Shown here in pieces: positions 4,030-64,000 of a stretch of DNA of 64,000 bases. The notes beneath the pieces were generated by a model. That model had not been told where the DNA came from. It worked only from the letters and a program-made list of their open reading frames with translations, and did no database searches. The first letter of the stretch is position 1; every line of letters starts with the position of its first letter. The stretch comes from Letharia columbiana (Eukaryota; Ascomycota; Lecanoromycetes; Lecanorales; Parmeliaceae), in assembly GCF_014066305.1 (NCBI RefSeq), contig NW_023501067.1, positions 496,001 to 560,000 on the forward strand, read 5' to 3'. A program made the position numbers and the translations under genes.

Positions 4030-7000
4030 TCATCCCTCCTTACCCGTCCACAGACTCGTAATTCCAGCTACTGCGCTCTCCATGCCCATCGTGGACATAC
4101 CACCGCCATCTTCTCTTTTCCTTTGACCACTCAATTCCATCTGAATATGTCGATGTAGGTTAACGAGCCAGTCCACGTAACTCTGCGCCTCGTTATTTCG
4201 ATCCTCCACCAGAAGCCTTGCAAACTCATATTCAGACCCATCGAGGCCCTGCCGGGCTAGTTGGATGGTAATTCCTTTACTTCCTCTCACGCTCGCCCAG
4301 TAGGCTAGGAGGTTGCGGACTTGAGCATTCAGATGCGTTTCTAAAGTTGGCAGCGAGGACATCATAGGATCCAGCGATGACAGCGACGTTTTTCCTTCCC
4401 CAAAAAGGTCCTCTAAAAGATTAGGTGAGACGTGCGCGTGGAGCCAGAGAAGGCAGACCTGGCCATCGTCCACGAGGTAGGCGCCACCTTCTTCTATTCG
4501 GGAAAAGGAGGCTCGTATTGCAGGAGGCACAACCAAGTGACCCGTAACAGGATGTGGGAAGCCTGATTCCGGCGGGAGAGTATGTACGGGGAGAATGCGA
4601 GGGTAAAGGAACAGCGACAGTTCGAGCGGCGAAGCCGATTTGAGAAGGCGCATGGTATGAGTGCGGCGGTCGGAAGGTTCGTGACCAGCCTTGAACGCTC
4701 GTGATTTCATCAAGCCGAGGACATACATGCTGAATTCCTTCAGATTTTCCGGCAAGACAAGCTGACCGGGAGGATGTGAACCAGAACCAGTCTTTCGATA
4801 CCCTGCCAAAATATCGATGGTCTTCTCAGTGAGTGCATTGCGAACATCCTTGAGTGGTCGCTCAATCATTCTTGTCGCAGCTGTGAGAATGATTAGCAAA
4901 GATGGAACGAAAAGCTCCAGCACGGATTGCTCTCGCCTACCCTCTTTTGCAATAATGTTGACCACAGCATCTTGATCAATAAACCTCATGCTTTCCATAG
5001 CCCCTTCACTGACTCCAGCAACTGTATTCGTGCAGCGAACGCGACGTTCTCCACTAGCCGTAGTGTATAGCAGAGCGCACTGGAAGTGAGCGTCCAATTT
5101 GGCATCTAGCTTGCCGTCATAGCTGAACATCACACCCACTGATTTGTCAGAATCTATGACACCAAATTCGAGATCAGCACCAAAATTGTGCTGTAGGAAG
5201 TTGCCGTGGTATGATGAGACTTGTAGGCCGTTCGAGCATCGGACTTTCATAAGCGCTTGGTATCCTGTCTCTCGGGTGAGGGTATGCTTGATCTCTTGCG
5301 CAAGCTGGAGCGAGTCGCGAGGCGCAATGTAGTTAGGATAAAAATAAGTCTGGCCACCGGAAACTGCGGAGAGATGACCTGATCCAGCCATTAGCCACAC
5401 AACAGCATTAAATTTCCAAATACTGATGAAACGAACCTATGGTGGCAATATCCATGTATTTTCCGGCTGGAGCAGCGATAAAGAAATCGACGCCAACACC
5501 ACTCTCGACCATTTTGCCAGCAAGCTTCTTGAAACCAGGATGGTCTGTCTGGAATAGCTTTTTCTCAGTTTCGATACCGTGCAAATCATTTTTATCTCTG
5601 AGGAACAGCCTGCCTGGCCCCCATGTCGGTAATGTTGCTAAGGAACACACTATCTTTCCACCTGTGGCGCTCAGTGACGACAATGCCGACTCCAATGTAG
5701 GCAGCAGAGCCGGCTCTGGATTCTTGACGTGCGAAAAAAGGGCTGGCAATTGCGTGAGAAGAGAGGTTATAATCAACCTAATGGGTCAGTCTGTCTCCGA
5801 CGTGATATTGGATACAGGAGACGTACTTTGATTTGTATGGGTCGACGAAGAGTCCTTCGCTACCGAGTGGCACGAAGGGATCCTCGATGTCTGGCATTAC
5901 GAGCATTTGAGCTCTTTCCAAATTCTCCTGCCAATTGTCAGCTATGCATGGTACATGTTTCAGTCGACCACTTACATTACAATTATAGAAATGCATAGCT
6001 TTGTCAAATGTCACGAATCCAATTTTGGAGCCAATAGGGATTCTTCTCTTCTCCGAGGCATTTTCGCTATTTGTTTTCTCGTCATCTACATCGTCTTCGT
6101 CCTCACCATAAAGAGCGCCGAGAATGCCCTCACAGAATGCTTCTAGAAAACCTTTGCTAACCGCATCTTGACTGACATCAATGACAAACAGCCACCGTAA
6201 GCCTACGGGTTCCTTAGCCCAGTACTCCTTTGGCACCAAGTATTCCACAGTCCCTGTCGTCAATTCGGGCCGTTGTGCTCGATCTACCCTGACGCCACTT
6301 GGATCCGTGGGCGCAAAATATTCTGGAATGACATCATTGGGGAAGGTGCACATATTACAGACGAGTTTGTTGCCGCCAGATCGAAATGTCATGAAAGGAT
6401 TAATGTAGGCTCTGCATCTACTGCAACGAGGAGGACCCAGTTCTCCAAAGTCGAGGACAGGTATCGGTCGTTCCCCGGCTTGGAGAGGAGCCAACGGTTG
6501 GAGGACCAGCCCCAGTGGTAGACCGGTCTGGGAAAGGAAATTTGATGTCGATGGGATATTGTTGAGCGTGAGTCTGGCATATTTGGGGGACGAATTGCCT
6601 TGATCTTGGGCAACGAAAGGCACAGCCCCGGGTGGGGGGAGATGTTGCTCCATTGTGGGGTATATGTGATCTAGGTAGTACTGTGCAGCACCATCCCGAG
6701 CTCGTGGTATGCTCGGTATTTGCTCTGGATCCACTCGCCCTTGAGCTGATACGCCAGGTCCGCTAGGCGCTGGCATCGGTGTAGCTGCATTTGCGACCCC
6801 TGCGCCCGAAGACTGTAGGCCCGGAGAGAAAGAAGGAGCGGCTTGCGCAGGGAATTGGTTCATAGCGGGTGTAATTTGCTGGCCACCGTATGGATTGCCA
6901 GCCCCCGTTTGCTGAGACGGATCCTGATTCACGTACTGTTCGGCATTTCCAGTGCTCTGGTTGAACGCTTGTGAAGACACCACCGGCTGGTCGATATTAT

Positions 7001-29172: not shown

Positions 29173-32100
29173 ATGGATATCAATCTCCTGCTTTCTCCCC
29201 AAGAAACTCCTCGCGCTACTCCCGCCCCATCTGTCAAACCTGCCTCCGCGAAGAAACCACGAAAGCCACGCACATCCAAAGTGAATCAACCTTCACCTCT
29301 TGTCCACACCACTCTTCCTCCCCCTACCCTACCGCAGAACGCTGTGGTGCAAGCGCAAAATGCTGCCCCGAACTCATCCGCCATGGGGCCTGCTGCCTTA
29401 GGAGTGCGGATGAGTGCTAGTAGCACATCCCCCAGTGATGGCGTCCGGACAAGCAGGCAGCCTTCAACACCCGGTATGGATACATTAGCGGACCTGGCTT
29501 CGATGCAACATCATCAGCAAACAGCACGGGCAAATGCTGGCGGCCTGCGGAGTGCTGAGATCTACGATCATTCGACTTCGTCAGCAGCAATCCTCCCAGC
29601 TCTACAGGCAATGTCAAGACCAACAGTCTCGAGTCAGCTAAGAGGAGGGTCTTATGACATGGCAATGGCAGACGGACCAGCGGAGACCCCTTCGCCGCGA
29701 AGGTACTCAACGAAAGCTCTCTCGGAAACCGATCTCCAGACCGTCACACAGCTGGTCGAGTACCTCGCTGCCAACCCATTTTCTTATGATTCTCACTTTC
29801 AACTCATTAAGATTTTGCATCAAGGCCTATCCAACCATTCTCATGTCCATTCACCCGCATCCTACGACCTACTGCAAGATCTACAAAGCGCAAGAGAAAC
29901 CATGAGCTCCAGATTTGCCTTGGGAGAGGACCTGTGGGCGGACTGGATACAAGACCAAACACTGCTCGCGAGCTCACTCGAGGATAGGATTTCGGTCATG
30001 GAAATATGCGCAAAAGCTGTGGAAGAAGAGCCTGGCAGCACGAAACTATGGCTGGCATATGGTCAATGGATGTTGTCACTATACAAACAAGCACATCCCC
30101 ACGACCAGAGGGTGTCTGGTATTGGGACGATCCCGGCACGGCACGGATGGTCTGAGGAAGATAGTATGGTGGCAAGAGAGGTCTTCAGCTGGCCGCAAAT
30201 GATGGACGTCTGGAAGTGTGCTGAACAAGAAACAAGGTGGCGGATCAATGACAGTCACCTCGTCTGGGACATATGGACGGAGTTGTTGATGCTAGAGCTC
30301 GCGTCATCTCCTCTGCAAGAGGCGATCAACGATACGCAGTATCACTTCATCAATCGTCTTCAAACGCCTCACGCAACATGGGATCAAACTTTTCAAGCCT
30401 ACTCGAACTTCGTCTCGAGGTACGATAATGCACAATACGAAGTCACGATGGTAACAGCGAATAGGCTGGGATTAAATGCCAAACAAACGTACAGTTTGCG
30501 CGAGATTAGGGAATTCGAAATCATGCGCGCGGGTGACAAGAATGACAGAGACGCCGAATTGAAGGCATATAACGACTACGTCGACTGGGAGCTCTCCCAA
30601 AGTCGGAAGAAACACAGCTTCAAGTTCGAACTTGCGAATGCTGTTTATCAACGGGCTACCCTTCGGTTTCCTTCCAACTCCGTGTTATGGGAGGGCTACG
30701 CTATGTTCCTGGTCGAGGAAATCACAACTCATCGTCGTCGAGATATATCAGCTCTCCAAATTCTCGACAAGGCAACCCGTCATTGTCCTTGGTCAGGAAG
30801 TTTATGGTCACAGTTTCTCTTGTCAGCAGAAAACAACAATCTGCCGTTTCCCGATATCGGAGATATCAAGCACAAAGCCACAAGTACTGGTCTGCTTGAT
30901 GCTGGAGGGTTGGAGGAGGTACTCAAAGTCAGCACGGCATGGTGCGGCTTCCTCAGACGGCGAGCTTTCCATCAAGACTCTACAGATGAAGATATGGATG
31001 TGGCAGAGGTCGGTATTCGTTCTGCAATTGAGGACATGGACAACGTGGGCCGTACGAAGTATGGCACTGAGTACCAAGGCGATCCAGAATACCGCTTAGA
31101 AAAGATCTATATAAGATATTTGACTCAGAGTCGCAATTGGGAAGGCGCCAGAGAGTCCTGGAAAAAGTTGATTTTGAAAAGAGGCGATAGCTACGAGTTC
31201 TGGCTTCGTTTCTATCTATGGGAGATGAACACCTGGAGCAAGCTGGTTTACGTTGAGACCGATCCCAACGGCGGTGGACGACCCTTCAAGCCCACCGAGG
31301 CCACGAAGGTACTGCAACAAGCATTGAGGCGGCCAAACCTAGATTGGCCGGAAAAGATCATTGAGACTTTGCAACATCATTGTGAAGACAATGAAGATGC
31401 TGAGGAACTTCAGTCTTCAGTCGCACAAGTCTGGAAAGCTACAAGAGCTGTGCAGAAGAGGAGGGAGAATGAGGCTTACGCGGCGTATGAGAAGGCACAA
31501 GCCGAAGCGTTACAGCAACAGCAGGGGGCCCAGCAAGATCCCGCAAGCTTTGAAGACGACAGCCAGATTTCCAGCAAGCGGAAACGGGAGGACGTGGATG
31601 AGGCAGGGTTCAGCAAGAGGAGTCGACCAGATGTCGCCGAGTCAACAGAAACGCAGTTAGAAGAGCAGCATCTTGCGGCTCCTTCGATACTCAAACGTGA
31701 TCGTGAAAATGCCACCGTAGTGGTGAAGAATCTACCTCCCGAGACGACTGAGACAAGGCTGCGACAGTACTTTAGAGATGTGAGTCCCATTGCCTTGGCA
31801 TCCACTTTTAACGTGCTGATTATCTAACAGTGCGGCATAATAAACAGCCTGACGCTCATGTCAGAAGGCTGATGGTCGATCGGCAACAGCGTCCATCGAA
31901 TTCGATTCGAAAGAAGACGTTCTAACGGCCCAAACAAAAAATATGAAGACACTTGACGATAGGGCAATCGAAGTTCAAATTGGCTCAGGATCGACACTGT
32001 ACGTTTGTAATTTTCCTCCTGTTGCTGATGAGACTTGGATACGAGAGAAGTTCAAAAGGGTGAGATGCCTCTCTCAAAATAGATGCTCAAATGGCTGACT

Positions 32101-33291
32101 GGCTTACAGTATGGAGAGATTGTTGACATACGCTTCCCATCCCTCAAGTTCGACACGCACCGGCGCTTCTGCTATGTTCAATTCAAATCATCAAGCGATA
32201 CTAAATCCGCCACTGAGCTTGACGGTGAGGACCTTGGAAACGACCTCAAACTTGTAGCCAAATTATCGGATCCGGGGCAAAAGAAGCCGAGAGAGGGCGC
32301 CATGTATGATGGACGAGAACTTTACCTGGTCAATCTCGATCGCAATACAACCAAGGCAGACATCAAACAAGCCTTCAAGAGATACGGCCACATTGAGAGC
32401 GTGAGGGTACTCACCAGAGTCGACGGCACTAGTAGAGGCATAGCCTATGTAGTCTTCCGAAGTAAAGTAGGCTCAAAATCATTGAATGTATTCTCGGTAC
32501 TCTCGCTAACAGCTCGTCAGGATGAGGCCGAAGCGGCCCTCGAAATGAACCTCACAACGCTCGGAAATCGCGTCTTGAACGTCTCGGTCTCTACCAACGA
32601 CAAGTTGAAACGCAAGCAAAACCAAATCATCACCTCTACCTCGACATCTCAACGCGGCACCACTTCCCCACCTCCACATACGAATGGCGACACCCACAGT
32701 GTCGCGTCGCCCGCCCCTCCCACCAACTTAGCTGGCCAGTCCAAATTTTCCGAAATCGAATCCCGTACCCTCGCGCTCCTCAATATACCAGATATAGTCA
32801 ATGACGCCCGAATTCGAGCTCTCACAGAACCTTACGGGGAATTGGTCAAGGTATCCCTCAGACCGAATCATCAGGGAGCTATTATCGAGTACAAAAATGA
32901 AGCCTCGGTAGGCAAAGCGTCACTCGCCCTAGAAGGGCATGAGATAGCTCCGGGAAGGAAGATACGCGTTGGAACAGTCAGTGAAATGAATCAGCAGAAA
33001 GCTGAATATCGCAGCGATCGTATAGCAGTCGGTGCAGCAGCAAAGACTACCAACGCACATCTACAAGGGCCGGCACCAATACGAAGGCCTGGTCAACCTG
33101 GGACAAGAAGGGGTGGGAAAGGCGGATTGGGAATGAAGAGGGGAGGAGTAGGCTTGAGCGGATCAAGAGCCACGAAGGATGGGGAGGACAAGGATGCGGA
33201 GATGAACGGAACGGTGGAAGGAGAGGAGAAGGGAAATGCGAAGAACAATGCTGATTTCAAGGCCATGTTTCTCAAGAAGGACGGGGCGTAA
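29173..33291 (+). CDS. prp24: PRP24-type U4/U6 snRNA recycling factor, with an apparent +1 frameshift
   Basis: Prp24 (SART3 in animals) reanneals U4 and U6 snRNAs. Exons are 29173-31779, 31831-32059, 32110-32466 and 32521-33291. The N-terminal two thirds are HAT helices (WADWIQDQTLL, LWLAYGQWML, SVLWEGYAMFL, WEGARESWKKL). Four RRMs follow (RNP2 blocks VVVKNLPP, LYVCNFPP, LYLVNLDR, ALLNIPD). The C-terminal ADFKAMFLKK matches the Lsm-binding box of Prp24. About 1320 aa if the frame holds. The 54-nt last intron (32467-32520) is in-frame and stop-free. In exon 2 the frame breaks: after LTLMSE the reading hits TGA at 31870, while the rest of RRM1 (ADGRSATASIEF) continues one base later. Either there is a one-base insertion near 31865-31868 or the sequence is wrong there. 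A second acceptor (CTGAC..CATGTCAG, ending 31864) would restore frame at the cost of RRM1 strand residues. Confidence 0.85.
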
Positions 33292-42016: not shown

Positions 42017-42409
42017 TATTGCGGCGATGTAGTGGCCTCAAACCAGCATTTGGAGTAGGAGGTAGATGCTCAAAGATGCTACCGGTAGGCATCACGAGTT
42101 GAGAGTAGCGGATGTGTCATAGCAAAAGGAGCTGTCTGTTTGGCAGCGTCAATTGTTGTAGAGTGAGACGCGAAGCGCGATGCCAAGCTATACGAAATGT
42201 ACCCCGATCTCGCCGCCCTGTGGTCGCACCACCTGGGTAAGCTGGGAAATTACACACTAAGGCAAATTACGAGCCACAGCACAAGTCTAAACGAGAGTGA
42301 AAACATCGTATTTTACACCGCGTACACCTTGTGCATAATTTGAAGTTCCCACCTCAACATTTTTTATTAGAACTTATACTAAAATAGCAATCATTTATCC
42401 AATAACAAA

Positions 42410-42551
42410 GACACTTTGGCGGAGTGGTTAACGCGATGCCCTGCTATCCGGCTAAGGCATTTCTTTCGAGGTAAGTCAAGGTTGTAAAGAAAGTTAGACC
42501 TCAATTGACTAACAATTTGACAGAGCGCAGGTTCGAATCCTGCAGGTGTCG
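42410..42551 (+). tRNA. tRNA-Ser(GCU) with an anticodon-loop intron and a second, spliceosomal-type intron in the variable arm
   Basis: Cloverleaf parts are all visible. The acceptor stem is 42410-42416 with 42544-42550 and discriminator G42551. The D stem is GCG/CGC (42419-42421, 42432-42434). The anticodon stem is ATGCC/GGCAT (42436-42440, 42456-42460) and the T arm is GCAGG-TTCGAAT-CCTGC (42527-42543). The anticodon loop reads CTGCTA, then an 8-nt insert (42447-42454) at the canonical 37/38 position, then A. The internal promoter fits: A box TGGCGGAGTGG (42417-42427) and B box GGTTCGAATCC (42530-42540). A T8 tract follows. The variable arm is interrupted after TCTTTCGAG by 53 nt (42471-42523) that start GTAAGT, contain TTGACTAAC and end TTTGACAG. 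Removing them restores a TCT-TTCG-AGA variable stem. G as discriminator and a long variable arm are serine identity elements. Confidence 0.85.
42471..42523 (+). other. Spliceosomal-type intron inside the tRNA-Ser variable arm
   Basis: The 53 nt match the protein-gene introns of this window in length and signals: exon AG, donor GTAAGT, branch CTAAC at 42509-42513, then 10 nt to acceptor CAG. It is not at the site cut by the tRNA-splicing endonuclease. Confidence 0.7.
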
Positions 42552-42555
42552 AATG

Positions 42556-42563
42556 TTTTTTTT
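42556..42563 (+). terminator. RNA polymerase III terminator (T8)
   Basis: Eight T residues begin five bases after the discriminator base of the tRNA-Ser gene, the standard Pol III stop. Confidence 0.85.
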
Positions 42564-43140
42564 CCAAAATCATTGGAATGAACTTCAATTTTTGCTAAAT
42601 GTTACTCGTATCCACCCCCATCGTGAACATCTTTCCTTCAACATTCAGTTCCGGTCATATGACTACAATTTGAGAGAACCACACAACGTAGACACACGCG
42701 AACACTGGGTTAGTATGGACATAAAGGCTAGCGTGGCAGGCGTGGGCAGATACATAATGAAGGTTTCTCATAGCGAACTTGATTCTCTTTTCTTTTTCCG
42801 TCGTGTTCGTCTTACATCTTAGACCAAATCTCTAGCTACTTAATATTATCTTAACTTCTTGACACACTCGAGGCGTGCTGTCACGTGTAGGTAGATGAAT
42901 TTCTTCCGTAACACTCTTAGACTAATACAAATAAGTGTTCTACCTCAAGCTGCCGTCAAAATCACACCTGGCTCGCCTCAATCCATAGTTGGAGAGCTTT
43001 CAGGAGAATAGTGCATTCCATTTTGAATAGGTCTTTAGCGGCGCACAGCGGAAACACGCTAGACCACGGTCTAAGCTCTGTTCGCGTAGGATGGACCTTG
43101 TGGCACACTTTTTTGTGGCTTAACAGACGACAAACTTCGG
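42564..43140. other. Intergenic, no gene recognised
   Basis: This is the spacer between the tRNA gene and the unknown gene starting at 43141. Nothing was found beyond short open frames. Confidence 0.5.
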
Positions 43141-51640: not shown

Positions 51641-53519
51641 TCATACTGGAAAGGCCGCCCCATCCCCTCTAGGATCACTCCCAGCACTAAACACATGCCG
51701 CCCATCTTCCATATGACATCTGATTACTTGTCCTCTACCAAATAGTCCCCTCTGATGTCCTCTGACTGTTTCAACCTTATGCCCCAATGCTGTCAAGCCC
51801 TTCTTGACCTGCTCGCTGATGCCATCTTCGAGATAAATAGTATCCAACAAACTGCCCTGATCTGGCATACCAGCCCCTATACAGAATCTCGGCGCATCTA
51901 GCGCAGCTTGTGGTTCGTACTTGAACGCTAGCATGTTCAACAAGACTTGGACATGCCCTTGTGGCTGCATGAAGCCACCCATCACGCCATATACGGAGTG
52001 TAAGCTGCCATCATCCGGATTCGTGATCATAGATGGGATGATAGTATGATACGGCCTTTTCCTCGGCGCAAAGACGTTGGGATGGCCTTCTTCCAATGAG
52101 AACCCCGCACCACGATTTTGCAAGGTGAAGCCGCAGCCTTTGGGAATGATGCATGTGCCGAAGCCGCCGAAGTTACTGTTGATGAAACTGCAGCCGTTGC
52201 CATCCTTGTCGGTGGTGGCGAAATAGACGGTATCGCTGTGGTTGTGGGCCGGTGAGCCGTGAGCTGGACGTTCTGATGCTTTTTTGGGGTTGAAGAGTTT
52301 GGCGCGTTCAGCAAGGTAGGGCTTTGAGATCATTTCCTCGGTTGGTACTTTGACGACGTTGGGGTCTGCGACAAACCAGGCGGCGTCTGCAAAAGAAATA
52401 CGGAGAGCTTCGATGACCGCATGGAGGTACTCGGTGCAATTGTGCTCCTTTTCCGCGAAATTACGAATCTTGCCCGCTTTCTCGAGTTCTTCCAGTATTC
52501 CAAGGGCCATCAAAGCAACTATTCCTTGACCATTAGGTGGGTGTTCCCATACTTCCACTCCATGGGATGGGGCGGTCTGGCTAGGTTGTCCATCGAGACC
52601 TTTACTCTGGATGGCACCGATGTCTTGGCTGTTGAATATCAAGGAAATTGGTTTTGTTTCCTCGGTTCCTGTTTGGGCGTGGTATCTCATATCTTCAAGA
52701 GTTAGATGACCTCCGAGGTCCTGAACGACTTTTACCAGAGCTTCGGCTACCGAACCCTCGTAGAATCCAGCTTTGCCATTTTTGGCGAGAAGCCGGAACG
52801 TATTAGCGAGGGTTGGATTGTAGAACAATTCTCCTGGCCTAGGCGCTCGTTTGCCGTCTGGTGCTTTGCTGTCCGTTTTCAACATTTCGCCAAAGTTTGG
52901 GGAAGCATTGCGGATGAGCTTCTCGCTGGCGCGCCACTACCAATGATTAGCGCTGATCCATATGTGATGAAATTTCGCTGCTCACAAAAAACGAAGACAG
53001 CTCTGCCACCGGAAAACCCTCTTCGCCAAGCTCAATCGCAGGTTTCAGGATATCCTCCATGCTGAGCTTTCCACTACCGAACCTCTCAATTGTGTCTACC
53101 CATCCAGCTGCGGCCCCTGGGGTCGTAACAGCTTGGACGCTTGTCATAGGGATTGTCCCAGGCTCTCCGGGCTTCACCCCTAAGTCCTTTCGCATTTGTT
53201 CCAATGAACCGCTTCCTGAAGACCGGCCAGACCCATTCATAGATTCCACCTTCCTAGTCTTGGCGTTGTAGAAGAGACAGAACATATCGCCCCCAATCCC
53301 GGTGGAAGAGGGTTCCGTCATATTCAAGGCAGCTGCCACGGCCACAGCCGCATCTGCTGCGTTCCCGCCAGCCCGTAACATTCTCTGCCCTGCTTGAGCA
53401 GCCAGCGGCTGGGTACACGCAACGATGCCATTGGTACTATGAACAACGCTTCGACGACTAGGAAAGGAGATGAACTCGGGATCTGAGGATGGATAAATGG
53501 CAGAGGCATTGAGAGGCAT
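51641..53519 (-). CDS. Gamma-glutamyltranspeptidase family enzyme
   Basis: The enzyme removes or transfers the gamma-glutamyl group of glutathione and its conjugates. Exon 1 (52986-53519) and exon 2 (51641-52936) join across a 49-nt intron (GTGAGC..GGTAG) to 609 aa, normal for the family. Visible motifs are [21 protein letters not shown] with GIGGDMF (large subunit), [15 protein letters not shown], the [14 protein letters not shown] site where the catalytic Thr starts the small subunit after self-cleavage, [12 protein letters not shown], and [19 protein letters not shown] near the end. No signal peptide is seen ([12 protein letters not shown] start), so a cytosolic enzyme like bacterial YwrD-type GGTs is likely. 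In ustiloxin-type pathways a thiol is attached to the cyclic core and trimmed, so a GGT beside a UstYa-like oxidase and a precursor-like gene is suggestive. It may equally be an unrelated housekeeping gene. Confidence 0.9.
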
Positions 53520-55910: not shown

Positions 55911-56529
55911 CCTCCAACAACCAGTTTGAAAATAATTTTCCTGTTAGGACGCGGCGCGTTGTCAAGGATTTTAGATCCCAAGCCACCTACACGTCGGTGG
56001 CAGTGGTTATTCAGGCGAAAGAGGCTGGCTGAGGATTCCTGCAATGCCCAGAGCCGCAGACTCTTCGAAAGGATCCCGCAGCACAGTCTGCGGGGACAAG
56101 CAAAAGGACATTGCAATTCAAACGGAATGGAGATAGCATATGTTCGCGGACCTAGAGCCTTACATCCGCACATTCCAAGACTGTGCACTAGGTGTAAGCT
56201 CTTTTGGTCTGAATGGTATGGGCCGGCCACGAATCTTAGAAGCTCGTATTGATCCCTTCAAATAGGGATGCGGATGTGTCATATGACACGTGACGTCAGG
56301 TCAGACCTACTCGGTCATTTGACAGTCATATATAGCCAAATGACCGCACTGCAAAAGGCTTGTAGTAAGGTAAAGCGTGAGATTCGAGGGAAACGGTAGG
56401 ACTCAGAGGTTGTTAGGGCTGAAATCCAGTATCACCAGTAATACCATACCAAGCTAGGGATTAATAACGCCAAGCCTCTATTTACTACGCCCGACTTTGT
56501 TAGCCTTATATATCTTTCACGGTTAGACA
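55911..56529. other. Spacer between foldback elements and gypsy element; possible LTR
   Basis: Composition is normal up to about 56460. The part near 56400-56580 (starting TGTTAGGGCT, with a TATATAT box at about 56506) may be a long terminal repeat of the adjacent gypsy element. A second copy was not found within the window. Confidence 0.3.
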
Positions 56530-58799
56530 CCTACTGGATACGGTTAGCGCTGTCATTTAGTCGAACCGAGTCGTAGACGCTAAAAACTCTAATTTAATAT
56601 CAAATGACTTTGATATAGTTCTCTCTATAGTATGTTATTTAGCTGATATCGATTATATTTCGTAACGACGATAGCGTAGTTCATATATATGCTAATATAG
56701 CTTCGAAAGATCTTTAGAATTATATTAGCAAGGGGGCTTACGTAGAAGATTATATATAAGATAATTCCCGATTAACATAAGCCTAAGAAATCGATTCTCG
56801 GGTTTGAAAAAAATGAGGCTATCGTAAAGATATCGGACGATTTCAATTCGACTGAAAACGAGGTATCCTCTGTTATTCTATAAGTTAACCCTTTATAGAT
56901 AAGACTCTTCGAAATATCGTTTATAGAAGTCGTCTATTAGGTCTTGGCAATTTTCGAATTTACCGCCGTTCGCATTATATTAGATAGAGTTATTATCGAG
57001 GCCTTCTCACTTAATCTTATACTTAAGACGACTATAAATTAATTTAAAGCCAAGTATTTCCTTAATAATCTATTTGATTCGACCGTTAATAGTAATATAT
57101 TTCGGCGAAGGATTTATCTATTCTGATAATGGGTTATTTATCGTAAGACTTAAGAGATTAAAGTGAAAGATGTCGTGAATTCTTATACTTGATAGAAGTT
57201 TTAGACGATAAGAGGTTTTAATAAAGTCTATAATCTTAAATAAACTGAGTCTCTTATAATCTAATTTGCGGGAAGGGCGATTAAAGATAATATTCTTACT
57301 ATTTAGAAAGATCGTATCGTTTACTTAAAAAGTAATCTTTTATTAATACTTATTAACTTATATAACTATAGTCTTCTAAGCGTAATTTATATTACTTCGA
57401 ATATACTTAAGAACTTATTTTATATAATTCGTAATATTCTTCGTCTAAGTAGTATTAAGACGCTTACGTATAATCTCGTAGTCGATAGTATTCGAGCTAA
57501 AAGTTATTCGAGAATAAAACCTCTTATTTACGAGAAAAGATGGGATATCGATAGTCGATAAGATAGTATTATTATCGGCGAACTCGGTAATAGATAACTA
57601 TCTTATCTAGTCGTTCTATATATAATTATAGTATATTTAAAGATAACGCTCTATATTCTAATTCGCTCGTTCGGTCTATTTATCGATTTTAGAGTAAAAG
57701 ACTATTAATAGCTTAGCTATAATATCTAGTCTCTCGTAAAAAGACTTCTATATAATAGCTATGAATTAAAGACCTCGATTCGATATTATTAAGATCGATA
57801 GATCGTATAGACGAAATACTTTCTTAAGTAATAAGTTAACTATCTTCTTAGCGGTAATATCTTTATCGATATCGAAATAGACTACGTAGTAACATTTCTT
57901 AGTAAGTTAATCGATCGCTACTTAAATAGCGTTATAGTCGTTAGATATAGATAAGCCTATAACGAAGTTAATCGATATATCTTATTATCGCTTCTATAGA
58001 ATTAATAGAGACTATAGTAAATTATACTCTCGATTGCGAGACGTCTTAGTTCTTTAATAGATATAGTAATTCTAAATATAGATAGTTATAATAGTCCTTA
58101 TATCTCGTTAATAATATTCTCTTTTAAGTAGCTTATAAGTACGTACTATCTCGAAATGTTCGTAGAATAGTTAATCGTATATCTCTCGAATAACATCGAT
58201 ATATATATTATCGAATATTTATAAACGATCCTAATAATAAAGTACTTCGTCTTATACGAAGTATTTACTAAGAGTAATTCCTTAAAACTTATTCTTATTT
58301 TCGACGATAGCCTTACGAATTTCCGTATAATACTCGTCTTTCTTATTAGCCTCTACTATCTTATAATAAATAAAGTTATTAATTATATATATATCGATAT
58401 ATTCGCCATTTAATTTCAATCGATTAGGGGTAAGAATTATTTAATGCTATTAACGTAATCATTTATTCTCGAAATTAATTAATTTATACTTAGTTATTTA
58501 TATAAGTATATTCGTCTTAATATTCTAAGACCTTAATCGATAGATAATCTTTATATTAAATTCGAATAGTATATTCAAATAGCGAGCCTAACGACGGCTA
58601 AGGTCTCTTTCTTTAGCGAAGTACATTAAGTTCTTATAGTCCGTGAAGATCTTAATAGAGATATTGATATATTTTAGCTTAGAACGCTAGTATTTAAGAT
58701 AGCGAATAATGGCTAGTAACTTCTTATCGTAGATCTAATAGTTATACTTAACTAAAGTAAGATTCTTACTATAGAAGACTATCGAATAAAGTACTCCCT

Positions 58800-58965
58800 T
58801 ATTATTAGTATATATAAAAGAATAAGATAGAGCTAAGCTTAAAAATCTTGAATTTATATATATAGCCAATCATTAATTAGTATATATAAAAGAATAAGGT
58901 AGGGCTAAGCTTGAAAACCTTGAATTTATATGTGTAGCCAATCATTAATTCGAGGTTATTACGTC
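58800..58965. repeat. Direct duplication, ~75 bp x2
   Basis: ATTAGTATATATAAAAGAAT followed by AAG(A/G)TAG(A/G)GCTAAGCTT...AGCCAATCATTAATT occurs twice in tandem. The copies differ almost only by A/G changes, as RIP would leave. It lies at the left edge of the inserted segment. Confidence 0.85.
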
Positions 58966-59649
58966 TTTTGGCTAGACTGACTAAGTTAGCCCGCTAGCCC
59001 TTTCGAGCTCCCTTATCAAAAATTTATATATAGAAGTTTTACACTCTGAAATAACCAGCTCTCTACGAATGCTATTTCTTTATAATTTCGTAAATTATAG
59101 AACTCGGTGTACACTTTCTAACGCTGTAAAAATAATGAAGTTTGGCCTACTATTGGTGGATTAAATGAACATTCAAATATAGTAGTCATGGTAGTCACAC
59201 TAGACGCGTCCGGGATCGGATAATAATCCTTCCACCTGTTTGTTATTCTTCCATTATTCTACCAATTCTACCAATTCTATCAATTCTACCAATTCCACCA
59301 ATATGAACACAATCGTCTTCGGTACCCCTCGCCCAATTAGAGCCCCTTACTGACGCCCCCAGGCCACCCCTCGGCGAATCCGCTACTACTGGCAATCGAG
59401 GCCGCAAGCGAGCTTAACAGCTACCTACTACTGCTTATAAACGCGTTAGAAGACCCTTAAAAAGAGCCTGAACGGATACGTCCTCCCCTACATACTCCTC
59501 TTAAGCCAGCGGTAAGTGGGTTAAACTAACATTCAAATATTATAGTCACACCAAACGCGTCCGGACGTTATATACTCTCTACGATTCCACATCAAATTAT
59601 TACTTAGTAAGCGGAGAACACCACTATAACTTAACCTGTTATCCCCACT

Positions 59650-60700
59650 GCATTAAAGAGTAAGAGGAGGAACTATAATAGGCAAATGCGGAGAATACTA
59701 CGGAGAAACCAAGCGGCAACAAGGCCACCATCGTCAAGAACACGGCTCAGCTCTCCAAGATCCCACGTTATATGCTCTCCACGGTTCCGCATTAAATTAT
59801 CACTCAGTAAGCGGAGAACACCACTGCAACTTGGCCATTCCACATCAAATCATTACTCAGCAAGCGGAGAACACCACTGCAATTTGGCCTGTCATCCCCA
59901 CTACATTAAGGAGCAAGAGGAGGAACTACAACAGGCAAATGCGGAGAACACTGCGGAGAAACCAAGCGGCAACAAGGCCACCATCGTCAAGAACACAGCT
60001 CAGCTCTCCAAGATCCCACGTCATATCAGTCAGCCACTCAGCTAGCCACTCAGCTAGCCACTCAGCTAGCCACTCAGTCTGATACTCTACAAGAGGAGGA
60101 GCAAGAGGAGGAACTACAACAGGCAAATGCGGAGAACACTGCGGAGAAACCAAGCGGCAACAAGGCCCCCAGCACCAAGAACACGGCTCAGCTCTCCAAG
60201 ATCCCACGTCATATACTCTCCACGGTTCCATATCAAATCATCACTCAACAAGCGGAGAACACCACTGCAACTTAGCCTATCATCCCCACTACATCAAGAA
60301 GTAAGAGGAGGAACTACAACAGGCAAATGCGGAGAACACTGCGGAGAACACTATGGAGAACACTGCGGAGAAACCAAGCGGCAACAAGGCCCCCAGCACC
60401 AAGAACACGGCTCAGCTCTCCAAGATCCCACGTCATATACTCTCCACGGTTCAATATCAAATCATCACTCAACAAGCGGAGAACACCACTGCAACTTAGC
60501 CTATCATCCCCACTACATCAAGAAGTAAGAGGAGGAACTACAACAGGCAAATGCGGAGAACACTGCGGAGAACACTATGGAGAACACTGCGGAGAAACCA
60601 AGCGGCAACAAGGCCCCCAGCACCAAGAACACGGCTCAGCTCTCCAAGATCCCACCTCATATGCTCTCCACGGTTCCACATCAAATCATCACTCCAGAAC
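59650..60700 (+). repeat. Array of ~200-bp tandem repeats with coding character
   Basis: Five units start near 59650, 59905, 60100, 60305 and 60530. Each has GAGGAGGAACTACAACAGGC, AAACCAAGCGGCAACAAGGC, CAGCTCTCCAAGATCCCA and CATCATCCCC/CTACAT blocks. In one frame a unit reads LQQANAENTAEKPSGNKA, then TKNTAQLSKIPRH. Units 4 and 5 share an extra GCGGAGAACACTATGGAGAA insertion. Unit 2 carries a 4x CCACTCAGCTAG sub-repeat (60033-60080). The first unit shows more C-to-T changes than the last. No complete gene can be drawn around it. Confidence 0.75.
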
Positions 60701-61067
60701 GATGCATATTTGAACGAATTGAAACCGTCCGATGTCTTGCTCTGACAGCTATTTCATTATTCGAATGATTTCACTGCGGTAGGAGATAATGTGGGATTCA
60801 CACCACTAATTGGCATGTTGTCTCCATTTCTTTCCGGTATTTCGATACTTCTTGCCATAAGGACATGGCCTTTCTCTGTTTTTTGTGGGCAATTATTACG
60901 GATTAATTCTTCACTTAATACACCTTCCTAATTAGGCCTTAGCGCGCCTCTCTCCGCACATATGTGCCTGTATATCACATAGATTAAATCAATTTTGTAG
61001 TGGTGGAAGTAGGTTAAAAACGCACAGCAAGCGATCAGAGTTCGATTTGACTTAGGGCTAGGGCTAA

Positions 61068-61135
61068 AATTCCATTTGACTTAGAAAAATCCAACTCCAT
61101 TTGACTTAGAAAAATGAAAAATCCAACTCCATGAA
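61068..61135. repeat. Short tandem repeat CCATTTGACTTAGAAAAAT
   Basis: Three near-identical units begin at about 61070, 61094 and 61120 (the last partial). They lie at the right edge of the insertion, beside a GAATTTAATTC palindrome. Confidence 0.7.
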
Positions 61136-64000
61136 TTTAATTCATGGGCCTTTACTTGTTATATTAGAAAAGAACATCTTCGTTAATATAGTCGAAAGAG
61201 TTAGTCTTCAGAATAGCGTTCTTTATTCTATTGAAATAAAGTAGGACTAAGACTTTCGTAATAGCGACTTTCAGAAAATGAAAGGCCTCTTAATATGCTG
61301 GGGACCAATTAAATATAATCTCTTTTACGATGAGTTTTATTATAGATTTAACTATTCTAGAGAAGTCTCTAATAAACCGCTAGTAAAAATTGCAAAATTC
61401 GATAAAGGTCTATATCTCTTTAAGATTAATAGATATAATTTACTCGATAATAGTCTAAATTTTAATAGGGTTTATTTATAACCCGTCTATAGACATTAAT
61501 AGATCTAAAAATTTAATTTTCTAGACGTGAAATTCGTACTTAAGGATATTTATCTAAAGGTTAATATCTCTTAATTTCTAAAGGATTTATCTAACGTATT
61601 AGATGTATTTCTTTTTTATCTTATTATAGATAAGTATATTATCGAGATAGACCTAATAGAAGTCATTTAGATACTCGAATAGAATATTATTTATATACTA
61701 TTAATATATAACTAGATCGTTAGTTAGATCGAAGAGGAGAATCTAATACTTATATACTTTAAGAGAGATAATAAAAATAGTAAAATCCTCGCTATCGGAG
61801 TATATACGTAGTTTATTAAACGCGACTATAATATCCAATCGAGTAAGATATTTATATTCCTAGATTCTTGCTAAAATCTCATCTATTAATAGAATTAGAT
61901 ATCGGTTTCTTTTAATAATAGCGTTTAGCTTTCGATAGTCCACATAAAAATGTAACCCTCTATTCGGCTTTTTCGCGAATAGAATAGATGAGGCGAATAA
62001 TACATAGCTTAGTATTATAAATCCCTTCTTTAAATATTCATCCAGATACTTCTTTATCTATTTTAGTTTATATCCCGATATTAAATAGATTCTACTTTTC
62101 GAAAGTTTCGTTTTATCGAAGCTATCGTTAAATTCCAGCTTATAATTATAAGAACGATATAAAGAAAATATATTCGCTTTAGCTCTATCGAAAATGTCGA
62201 GATAATCGTAATACTTTATAGATAGCTTATATTTCATCTTCTTAGAATTAATCTCGTCGATGCTATTAATCTAAATAGGGCAATTAGAATTATAACACCT
62301 TTTATATTTCTTTTCTAAGTTATAGAAATAGAGTTTATTAATCGATATATAAGAATCGTAAGATATTCGAGTAATAAAAGATATATGTAGTATTAACGAG
62401 TTATTATAGATCTTATTTACTATTAATATAAATAACTTATTATCTTTTTTATAGACTAGCTAATAGTAGACCGCTATATTAATCTCAGCGATGTTAATAA
62501 ACTTAAACTTCTTATTATTCTCGTTCTTATTTAATAAGAAGATATTCGAATTAGTCTCGTTATCGCAAGTAGATAAGAAAGAGCTTTATCGTTTTAGTAT
62601 AATAGATAGAGAAGTAGATGATATGAATAGCCGAAGCTCCGAAGTTAATAGAAAGAGAAGTTCGTTTATTATTAATATCTAATTATTATTATAGTTATAT
62701 CGATCGAGTAGAAAGAGTATCTTATCCCGTAACATATTAAGGACTATTTCATATTTATTTATTTAAGATTTTTTAACTATTATATCGTATTTCAATAATA
62801 TAATTAATATTAGATATATTTCTTTTCGATAGTCTTTTACTATTACTATTAGAAGTAAGTAGTATATAATTAATCGTTTTATAATTTAATCGTTATAATC
62901 TCTTAGCGATTTAGATCGTAATAGTAAAAGTAGTTCCAGATATAAGACTTTATATATCGCTGAGATTAAGAACTTATTTATAACTATATAAGCTTCGATA
63001 TATCTACTATCTATAAGGGAGTTTTTAAGTAAGTAGATTCTCTCTTATAAAGAAAGCGTAACTTATATACGAAAAGAATAACGTGTTAGAGCGTTATTAA
63101 GAGCGTCTATTAGATATACTTTATAAGTATCTCTTATTATAACTTTGAAAGAGGCTATTCGTTTTTCGAATCTAAAAAAGAATCGTCGCTACCCGTAATA
63201 TCAACGTTATCGATTTCGAATTCTTCGTTTATTTCTAACGCGTAAAGTCGTGCTTTCTCGAAGGCCTTTTTATCGACCTCGGTTTAGATAAGTATTATAT
63301 AGTTCTTTCGATAGTAGTCTTTCTTATCGTAGTTATAGCACATTAATTCTCTTAGCTTTAAATTAATTATAATATTTAGAGGCGTAGTAATTATACTTAA
63401 ACTAGATTCGATAACGAGTATAAGGCGTATATTAGTCGCGAGTACTATCGTCGAAGTTCGTATTATAGTTAACTTAATAGTAGTCTTTATAGACTTAGAA
63501 TTCTTATAATTAACACGTTGTAAATTATCTAGTTTTCGAAGATATTCTTTTACAGCCTTTAAAATAATAAAATCTTCTACGACCTATTATATCTCCTTTA
63601 ATTTCTTTCTTAATTTCTTAAAAAGATAGTTCTCTAGTATAAGAGTTTTATTATAGTTAAGAATAATATCTAGTTAAATAAAGTCTAAATAGAAGTCGAT
63701 AAAGGATTAAATTTCTTATTATAGAGTATATATATTACGTAATATATTACTACGTCGATTTAAGTTCTCGTAGATATCGATTAACTTATTTATAATCTTA
63801 GTAAAAGACTAGTATAGATTAATAAAGTTTCGAAGTCTTCTATATATCGTATATTATATAGTCTTATCGCTAAGTCGTAAGACTATATAAACTATCTTAG
63901 AGTTCTTAGTAAGATAATAATCGCTGTTAATCTTAAATTTCTATTCTATTCTAAAGAATCAGTCGTTCTAGATAAGATTAATATCGTTAATAAATAGAGG

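Follow-up and report, generated by a model that had tools for sequence, protein, structure and literature searches.

How can a tRNA gene whose variable arm is interrupted by 53 nt give rise to a tRNA, and which machinery would remove the insert? The question is raised by a tRNA-Ser(GCU) gene in the window, the whole 64,000-nt stretch of DNA analysed here (G000:C32:496001-560000). In the textbook view, a protein endonuclease excises tRNA introns, and spliceosomal introns are regarded as a property of RNA polymerase (Pol) II transcripts, U6 and rDNA being odd exceptions. Judged from the DNA, the insert is very probably a U2-type spliceosomal intron in a working, apparently single-copy Ser(GCU) gene and one of at least 14 such introns in ten nuclear tRNA genes; the cell probably needs its mRNA splicing machinery for some of its tRNAs. 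An initial sequence-only reading had proposed a spliceosomal intron in the variable arm next to an ordinary intron at the 37/38 site, which appears to be the best-supported interpretation after the analyses described below.

By its protein matches, the host is a lichen-forming, Parmeliaceae-like ascomycete. The best organism-named matches of a Prp24-like protein and a gamma-glutamyltranspeptidase encoded in the window are proteins of Alectoria fallacina (88% identity) and Mycoblastus sanguinarius (85% identity), respectively. Searches of the genome_contigs and viral_contigs collections brought up no DNA of relatives. Positions 56001-64000 of the window have a G+C content of 0.32-0.35, compared to 0.47-0.53 in the rest of the window; AT-rich blocks of this kind are left by repeat-induced mutation in ascomycetes.

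Anatomy and copy number of the tRNA-Ser(GCU) gene

The RF00005 match found by cmscan spans exactly positions 42410..42551 of the forward strand, the same ends as first proposed. At 44.6 bits it clears the gathering score of 29, and its variable region contains a long stretch of extra sequence. The unaided ARAGORN run called no tRNA in the window. Once the 53 nt at 42471..42523 are removed from the 142-nt gene, ARAGORN calls Ser(gct) with an additional 8-nt intron in the anticodon loop, as the sequence-only reading had suggested. The gene thereby has the cloverleaf with a long variable arm and the GCU anticodon of a tRNA-Ser(GCU). Exon 1 (42410..42470, 61 nt including the 37/38 intron) is followed by the 53-nt intron, exon 2 (42524..42551, 28 nt) and a run of eight T (42556..42563) that resembles a Pol III terminator. 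The anticodon GCT lies at 42443..42445. The 8-nt insert TCCGGCTA at the canonical 37/38 site was placed by eye at 42447..42454, to within one base or more, and has neither GT-AG ends nor branch signals.

The 53-nt GT-AG intron interrupts the variable stem in its 3' strand, and its position is supported by the sequence, ARAGORN, a restricted search and an alignment of Ser tRNAs. GTAAGT, TTGACTAAC and TTTGACAG were located where they had been described; the intron runs from GTAAGT to TTGACTAACAATTTGACAG, with the junction GAG/GTAAGT...GACAG/AGC. The putative branch site CTAAC (42509..42513) places the branch A at 42512, at a distance of 11 nt from the final intron base; TTGAC at 15 nt is an alternative. 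The part of the variable arm in exon 1 (42462..42470) comprises the TCT strand, the loop TTCG and, of the 3' strand, only AG; the last A of that strand is found at 42524 beyond the intron. Without the 53 nt the arm reads T-TCT-TTCG-AGA-GC, a plan common to the other Ser tRNAs of the genome. With the 37/38 intron also removed, the tRNA aligns with the genome's own Ser(UGA) over 81 columns without a gap. The proposal that exact removal rebuilds the variable stem is thus borne out.

Possible promoter elements were read from the sequence. The A-box-like TGGCGGAGTGG (42417..42427) is uninterrupted here and was recognised by its likeness to the A-box consensus; the B box GGTTCGAATCC lies at 42530..42540 (pattern match G000:C32:538530), and a TATA-like element is located 35 nt upstream of the gene at 42375..42378. 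As a protein gene might own the intron, open reading frames of at least 30 aa overlapping 42300-42700 were also considered; these are 30-105 aa long.

Other intact Ser(GCU) copies, which the sequence-only reading had named, together with a lack of spliced reads, as the sign of an inactive pseudogene, were not found by pattern searches of the genome. Searched against the 52.2-Mb assembly (161 contigs), the full gene matches at a single place. The pattern of its D arm and anticodon, with up to 3 mismatches allowed, occurs at 16 places, with an exact match only at the window gene. Viewing 9 of the 15 remaining places and running an acceptor/T-arm finder over all 16 loci revealed genes for different Ser tRNAs as well as unrelated sequence, but not a second Ser(GCU). 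The exact B box occurs at 49 places, one of them on contig C94, which we took as mitochondrial. A T stem accompanies 13 of the other 48 copies, of which six belong to tRNA genes (Ser(GCU), four Leu and Gln), and the Ser(GCU) acceptor AGGTGTC follows only the window gene among these 13. The gene is therefore apparently single-copy as far as these patterns reach, which could miss a copy with both a split D/anticodon arm and a different B box.

Interrupted tRNA genes and U6 in the genome

Genome-wide, at least 14 distinct inserts of this type were found in at least ten tRNA genes; their sites are the D arm, the variable arm, the T arm and positions next to the acceptor. The survey used B-box patterns, a T-stem/acceptor finder and reading by eye, in part over 100 listed matches per pattern, and most of the B-box places read are not tRNA genes. 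A whole-genome Rfam tRNA search scored 63 of 1723 candidates; the window gene lies outside that result. A dispersed repeat ending in GGTTCGATTCCTAATGGCGCTGGTACAATGGTGTTGCGGTGCTTTT, with a B-box-like core (e.g. G000:C2:1048313 and C26:214611), makes up many of the matches listed and is perhaps a tRNA-derived SINE.

Besides Ser(GCU), the interrupted genes are Ser(AGA) on contig C72, Ser(CGA) on C53, Thr(AGU) and Arg(UCU) on C16, Thr(CGU) on C2, Leu(UAA) on C3, Lys(UUU) on C79, Gln(CUG) with two inserts on C62 (L122, G000:C62:134700-135250) and Lys(CUU) with four inserts on C33 (L158 and L153, G000:C33:162260-162880). Ser(CGA) has an identical copy on C81. Between the two loci (L135 on C53, L136 on C81) the gene and all compared downstream sequence are identical and the sequence a little upstream is unrelated, suggesting either a recent duplication or assembly redundancy.

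The Lys(CUU) gene is 289 nt long, with inserts of 53, 52, 53 and 58 nt between exons of 10, 7, 10, 18 and 28 nt; two of its four GT-AG inserts split the A box. After the four removals a 73-nt tRNA is obtained, which ARAGORN calls Lys(ctt). In Gln(CUG), two 53-nt inserts, the second with GC-AG ends, separate exons of 10, 5 and 68 nt, which join to a Gln(ctg). With its additional 11-nt anticodon-loop intron, this gene combines both kinds of intron and has three in all. A point against spliceosomal removal is that the spliceosome would have to deal with exons as small as 5 and 7 nt; the two Gln(CUG) introns could leave one after the other, sparing it the 5-nt exon.

In total, at least 26 nuclear-type tRNA loci were recognized, of which 11 are interrupted (ten distinct genes and the one duplicate) and 15 are not (L008, L009, L021, L027, L064, L079, L080, L082, L084, L085, L089, L132, L145, L152 and L157). 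At the uninterrupted loci L080, L132 and L157, the names given by ARAGORN differ from the manual reading. The B-box patterns used, an incomplete survey, yielded no tRNA gene for many amino acids, among them Asp, Asn, Tyr, Trp, Phe and Cys. Four loci that by eye appear organelle-like or doubtful (L020, L081, L087 and L088) were kept outside the count, together with the matches on C94 and C110, taken as mitochondrial. L020 (G000:C25:364379-364449), a tRNA-Val(UAC) of bacterial or organellar appearance, lies on a large contig. Many of the tRNA matches on C94 recur ~90.5 kb further on, and some also occur on C110; these contigs probably represent a mitochondrial genome around which the assembly ran more than once.

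An Rfam search for U6 snRNA, in which 47 of 3742 candidates were scored, gave one genome match with 41.2 bits against a gathering score of 44. The gene (L161, G000:C17:919231-919323 and upstream sequence) matches the model in two pieces; the first ends in ACAG, the second is well aligned from AGAGAAG, and 53 nt lie between them. This insert (GTTGGT...CTACTGATTCCAAACTAG), with branch site CTGAT and end TAG, interrupts the ACAGAGA box at ACAG/AGA. A second insert of 57 nt (GTATGT...CTAATTCCGCAAAG) is likely present near the 3' end, where the U6 consensus is weak; its placement relies partly on known U6 sequences. A YTRAY branch site is found in both U6 inserts.

Rebuilt tRNAs and splice signals

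To evaluate the removals, rebuilt tRNAs were compared with the unspliced genes, with each other and with shuffled controls. Without splicing, ARAGORN found 5 of the 11 interrupted loci, two of them with the right isotype. With the inserts removed, all 11 were found, 10 with the right isotype (one locus being the duplicate); Leu(UAA) was called Ile because of the placement of its anticodon-loop intron.

The four distinct Ser tRNAs, with all introns removed by us and the second identical Ser(CGA) left out, align without gaps at 81 nt. All 92 pair cells in this alignment are standard (100%), a value reached by none of 500 shuffles. Changes on both sides are seen in 9 of the 23 pairs, including two of the three pairs of the variable stem. 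This stem is split by introns in Ser(GCU) and Ser(AGA), and its three pairs are kept in all four tRNAs. As the rows are few and related, the pairing counts as support rather than proof; a dead gene, however, would hardly keep it. Spliced Ser(CGA) and Ser(UGA) share 78 of 81 positions. A 55-nt insert in the T stem (GTAGGT..CACAG) is present in the Ser(CGA) gene alone, so that the two genes represent a filled and an empty site; their anticodon-loop introns also differ, with 17 and 28 nt.

A blind deletion search that disregarded splice signals gave the GT-AG product as the top or tied solution in four of eight genes and at a lower rank in the other four. For Ser(GCU) it ranked 20th, with a score of 36.5 compared to 37.5 for the top solution, and the Thr(AGU) product was absent from the top-listed rows because the score favoured long variable arms. 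The intron boundaries are not fixed by structure alone. As the blind search was not decisive, a restricted search with controls was added, in which only introns of 45-60 nt that had both a donor and a branch site were admitted; Arg(UCU) and its shuffles were exempt from the branch rule. Here the reported intron was the best solution in all eight single-insert genes, with scores of 33-38. Three of 2400 shuffles reached 32 and one reached 33, the lowest real score, while no decoy T-arm (0 of 30, 95 loci) reached 30. The minimum-energy fold of spliced Lys(CUU) is a cloverleaf (z -2.59); that of spliced Ser(GCU) is not (z -1.45), which speaks against the main reading.

The 14 tRNA inserts begin with GT (13) or GC (1), and all have an AG acceptor, AAG in two cases, and a U1-type donor under a match definition that we set and that one of five protein-gene introns fails. 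Donor and YTRAY branch site together are present in 13, the nearest YTRAY lying 9-18 nt before the last base; the exception is the Arg(UCU) insert, which has the donor and no YTRAY. This exception and the two AAG ends speak against the spliceosomal reading. The same combination occurs in 1.5% of 9564 GT/GC..AG segments of 49-58 nt from the window and in 3.7% of shuffled inserts. The variable-arm element had been called indistinguishable from the protein-gene introns of this genome, and for the small comparison set of five such introns in the window the likeness holds. Placed by homology, these lie in a Prp24-like gene (31813..31864, 52 nt, and 32060..32109, 50 nt, forward strand), a Sec24-like gene (5778..5826, 49 nt, and 5379..5436, 58 nt, reverse strand) and a gamma-glutamyltranspeptidase-like gene (52937..52985, 49 nt, reverse strand). 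Their lengths of 49-58 nt equal the range of the tRNA inserts; all five contain YTRAY, as CTGAC or CTAAT 8-12 nt from the end, four have the U1-type donor, and four pass both rules. A comparison of the introns with one another (91 pairs) gave a best z of 3.5, for the first introns of Lys(CUU) and Gln(CUG), both inserted after position 10, which is too weak to claim common descent.

Proposed transcription and intron removal, and relation to known systems

The anatomy of the gene, the splice signals, the rebuilt tRNA structure and the recurrence in other tRNA genes and in U6 are all features of the DNA sequence. For the maturation of the RNA, we propose that Pol III would start at the upstream TATA element, helped by the B box, and stop in the T run. 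The spliceosome would read GTAAGT, CTAAC and CAG and join GAG to AGC, completing the variable stem, and the tRNA splicing endonuclease and ligase would remove the 8-nt 37/38 intron. Of the 10 interrupted genes, 9 have a TATA-like element at -45..-25, compared to a mean of 2.8 in mononucleotide shuffles, of which 1 in 2000 attains this count; many uninterrupted tRNA genes have such an element as well. A run of at least four T follows within 25 nt in 9 of the 10, with Leu(UAA) as the exception, a count that is biased upward because part of the gene searches required TTTT.

The same introns might instead be removed by the spliceosome from tRNA precursors made by Pol II, alone or within longer capped transcripts. 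Spliceosomes normally act on Pol II RNA, and the introns that split the A box in Gln(CUG) and Lys(CUU) are awkward for a TFIIIC-dependent promoter. The T runs behind nine of the ten genes, even with their inflated count, argue against Pol II precursors, as does the interruption of U6, a Pol III gene in other organisms. In addition, yeast correctly removed one lichen rDNA intron from Pol I RNA (PMC8527467). We therefore regard Pol II precursors as unlikely, and spliceosomal removal from Pol III transcripts as the preferred interpretation.

A different enzyme could also be involved: the inserts would then be non-canonical introns, which the tRNA splicing endonuclease cuts at bulge-helix-bulge (BHB) motifs before tRNA ligase joins the exons. 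Non-canonical introns in D and T arms exist in some eukaryotes; those of the red alga Cyanidioschyzon, like archaeal ones, are ascribed to this endonuclease and to BHB motifs, and nucleomorph ones of 3-24 nt have a splicing mechanism called unknown in the same source (PMC4090602). They resemble the present inserts in lying outside the 37/38 site, with D and T arms among the sites and sometimes 2-3 per gene. In the predicted fold of the unspliced Ser(GCU) RNA, moreover, the insert forms a long variable arm. The inserts described here, however, are 49-58 nt long, with donor, branch and acceptor signals, and none of the 14 passed an exact BHB test (two 3-nt bulges and a 4-bp helix, in two topologies, run with no positive control). 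Cutting at BHB motifs predicts no GTRNGT donor, YTRAY or AG, in contrast to the donor and branch site in 13 and the AG in all 14 inserts, and the one insert of Ser(GCU) at a site expected for this enzyme, TCCGGCTA in the anticodon loop, has no donor, branch or acceptor signal. Endonuclease cleavage of the longer inserts is hence very unlikely. Most unlikely of all is that the genes are dead tRNA copies with chance insertions, the real tRNAs lying elsewhere or being absent from the assembly: eukaryotic non-canonical inserts are usually ascribed to pseudogenes among many copies (PMC4090602), and our genome search used patterns and was not exhaustive, but these searches found no intact second Ser(GCU), pairing is complete with compensatory changes across the introns, shuffles or decoys almost never gave such results, and the only U6 match found would have to be dead too.

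Spliceosomal introns in these tRNA genes can be compared with three further known situations. Canonical 37/38 introns occur in many of the same genes, e.g. the 8 nt in Ser(GCU); they differ in their site and, in Ser(GCU), in having no GT-AG or branch signals. Many rDNA introns have been noted in lichen fungi (PMC6652019). For ectopic spliceosomal introns in the rDNA of lichen-forming ascomycetes, excision from rRNA has been reported (PMC8527467, which cites Bhattacharya et al. 2000). They likewise represent mRNA-type introns in a structural RNA gene that is not transcribed by Pol II in lichen fungi. There, however, Pol I makes an rRNA, whereas here tRNA genes are affected, with up to four introns per 73-nt RNA, 5-nt exons and anticodon-loop introns alongside. 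The fission-yeast U6 gene contains an mRNA-type intron thought to stem from reverse splicing (PMC10484740), a spliceosomal intron in a Pol III transcript similar to the one in the ACAGAGA box of the U6 gene described here. That case concerns one snRNA gene, and tRNAs, unlike U6, are not parts of the spliceosome. No report of spliceosomal introns in tRNA genes was found in the open-licence PMC literature, searched by titles and abstract openings, in which the exact phrases were unmatched.

ARAGORN finds 5 of 11 unspliced genes cut out for it, names two correctly and calls none in the window, so that essential tRNAs may appear to be missing from lichen genomes. We lean, somewhat beyond even odds, towards the view that tRNA processing is a regular task of the spliceosome in this lichen fungus, perhaps also in related ones. 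Codons such as Ser AGY and those for Lys and Gln would then depend for their decoding on the spliceosomal removal of up to four introns per Pol III transcript, including splicing across exons of 5-7 nt. Pol III RNAs would have acquired these introns in bulk, perhaps through reverse splicing. Slow growth and tolerance of drought, which have been proposed as effects of lichen rDNA introns, may be reinforced where the tRNA supply depends on the spliceosome. If this is true, the spliceosome would routinely handle very short Pol III RNAs, the story of the lichen rDNA introns would extend to tRNAs, and the spread of introns into non-coding genes would become testable.
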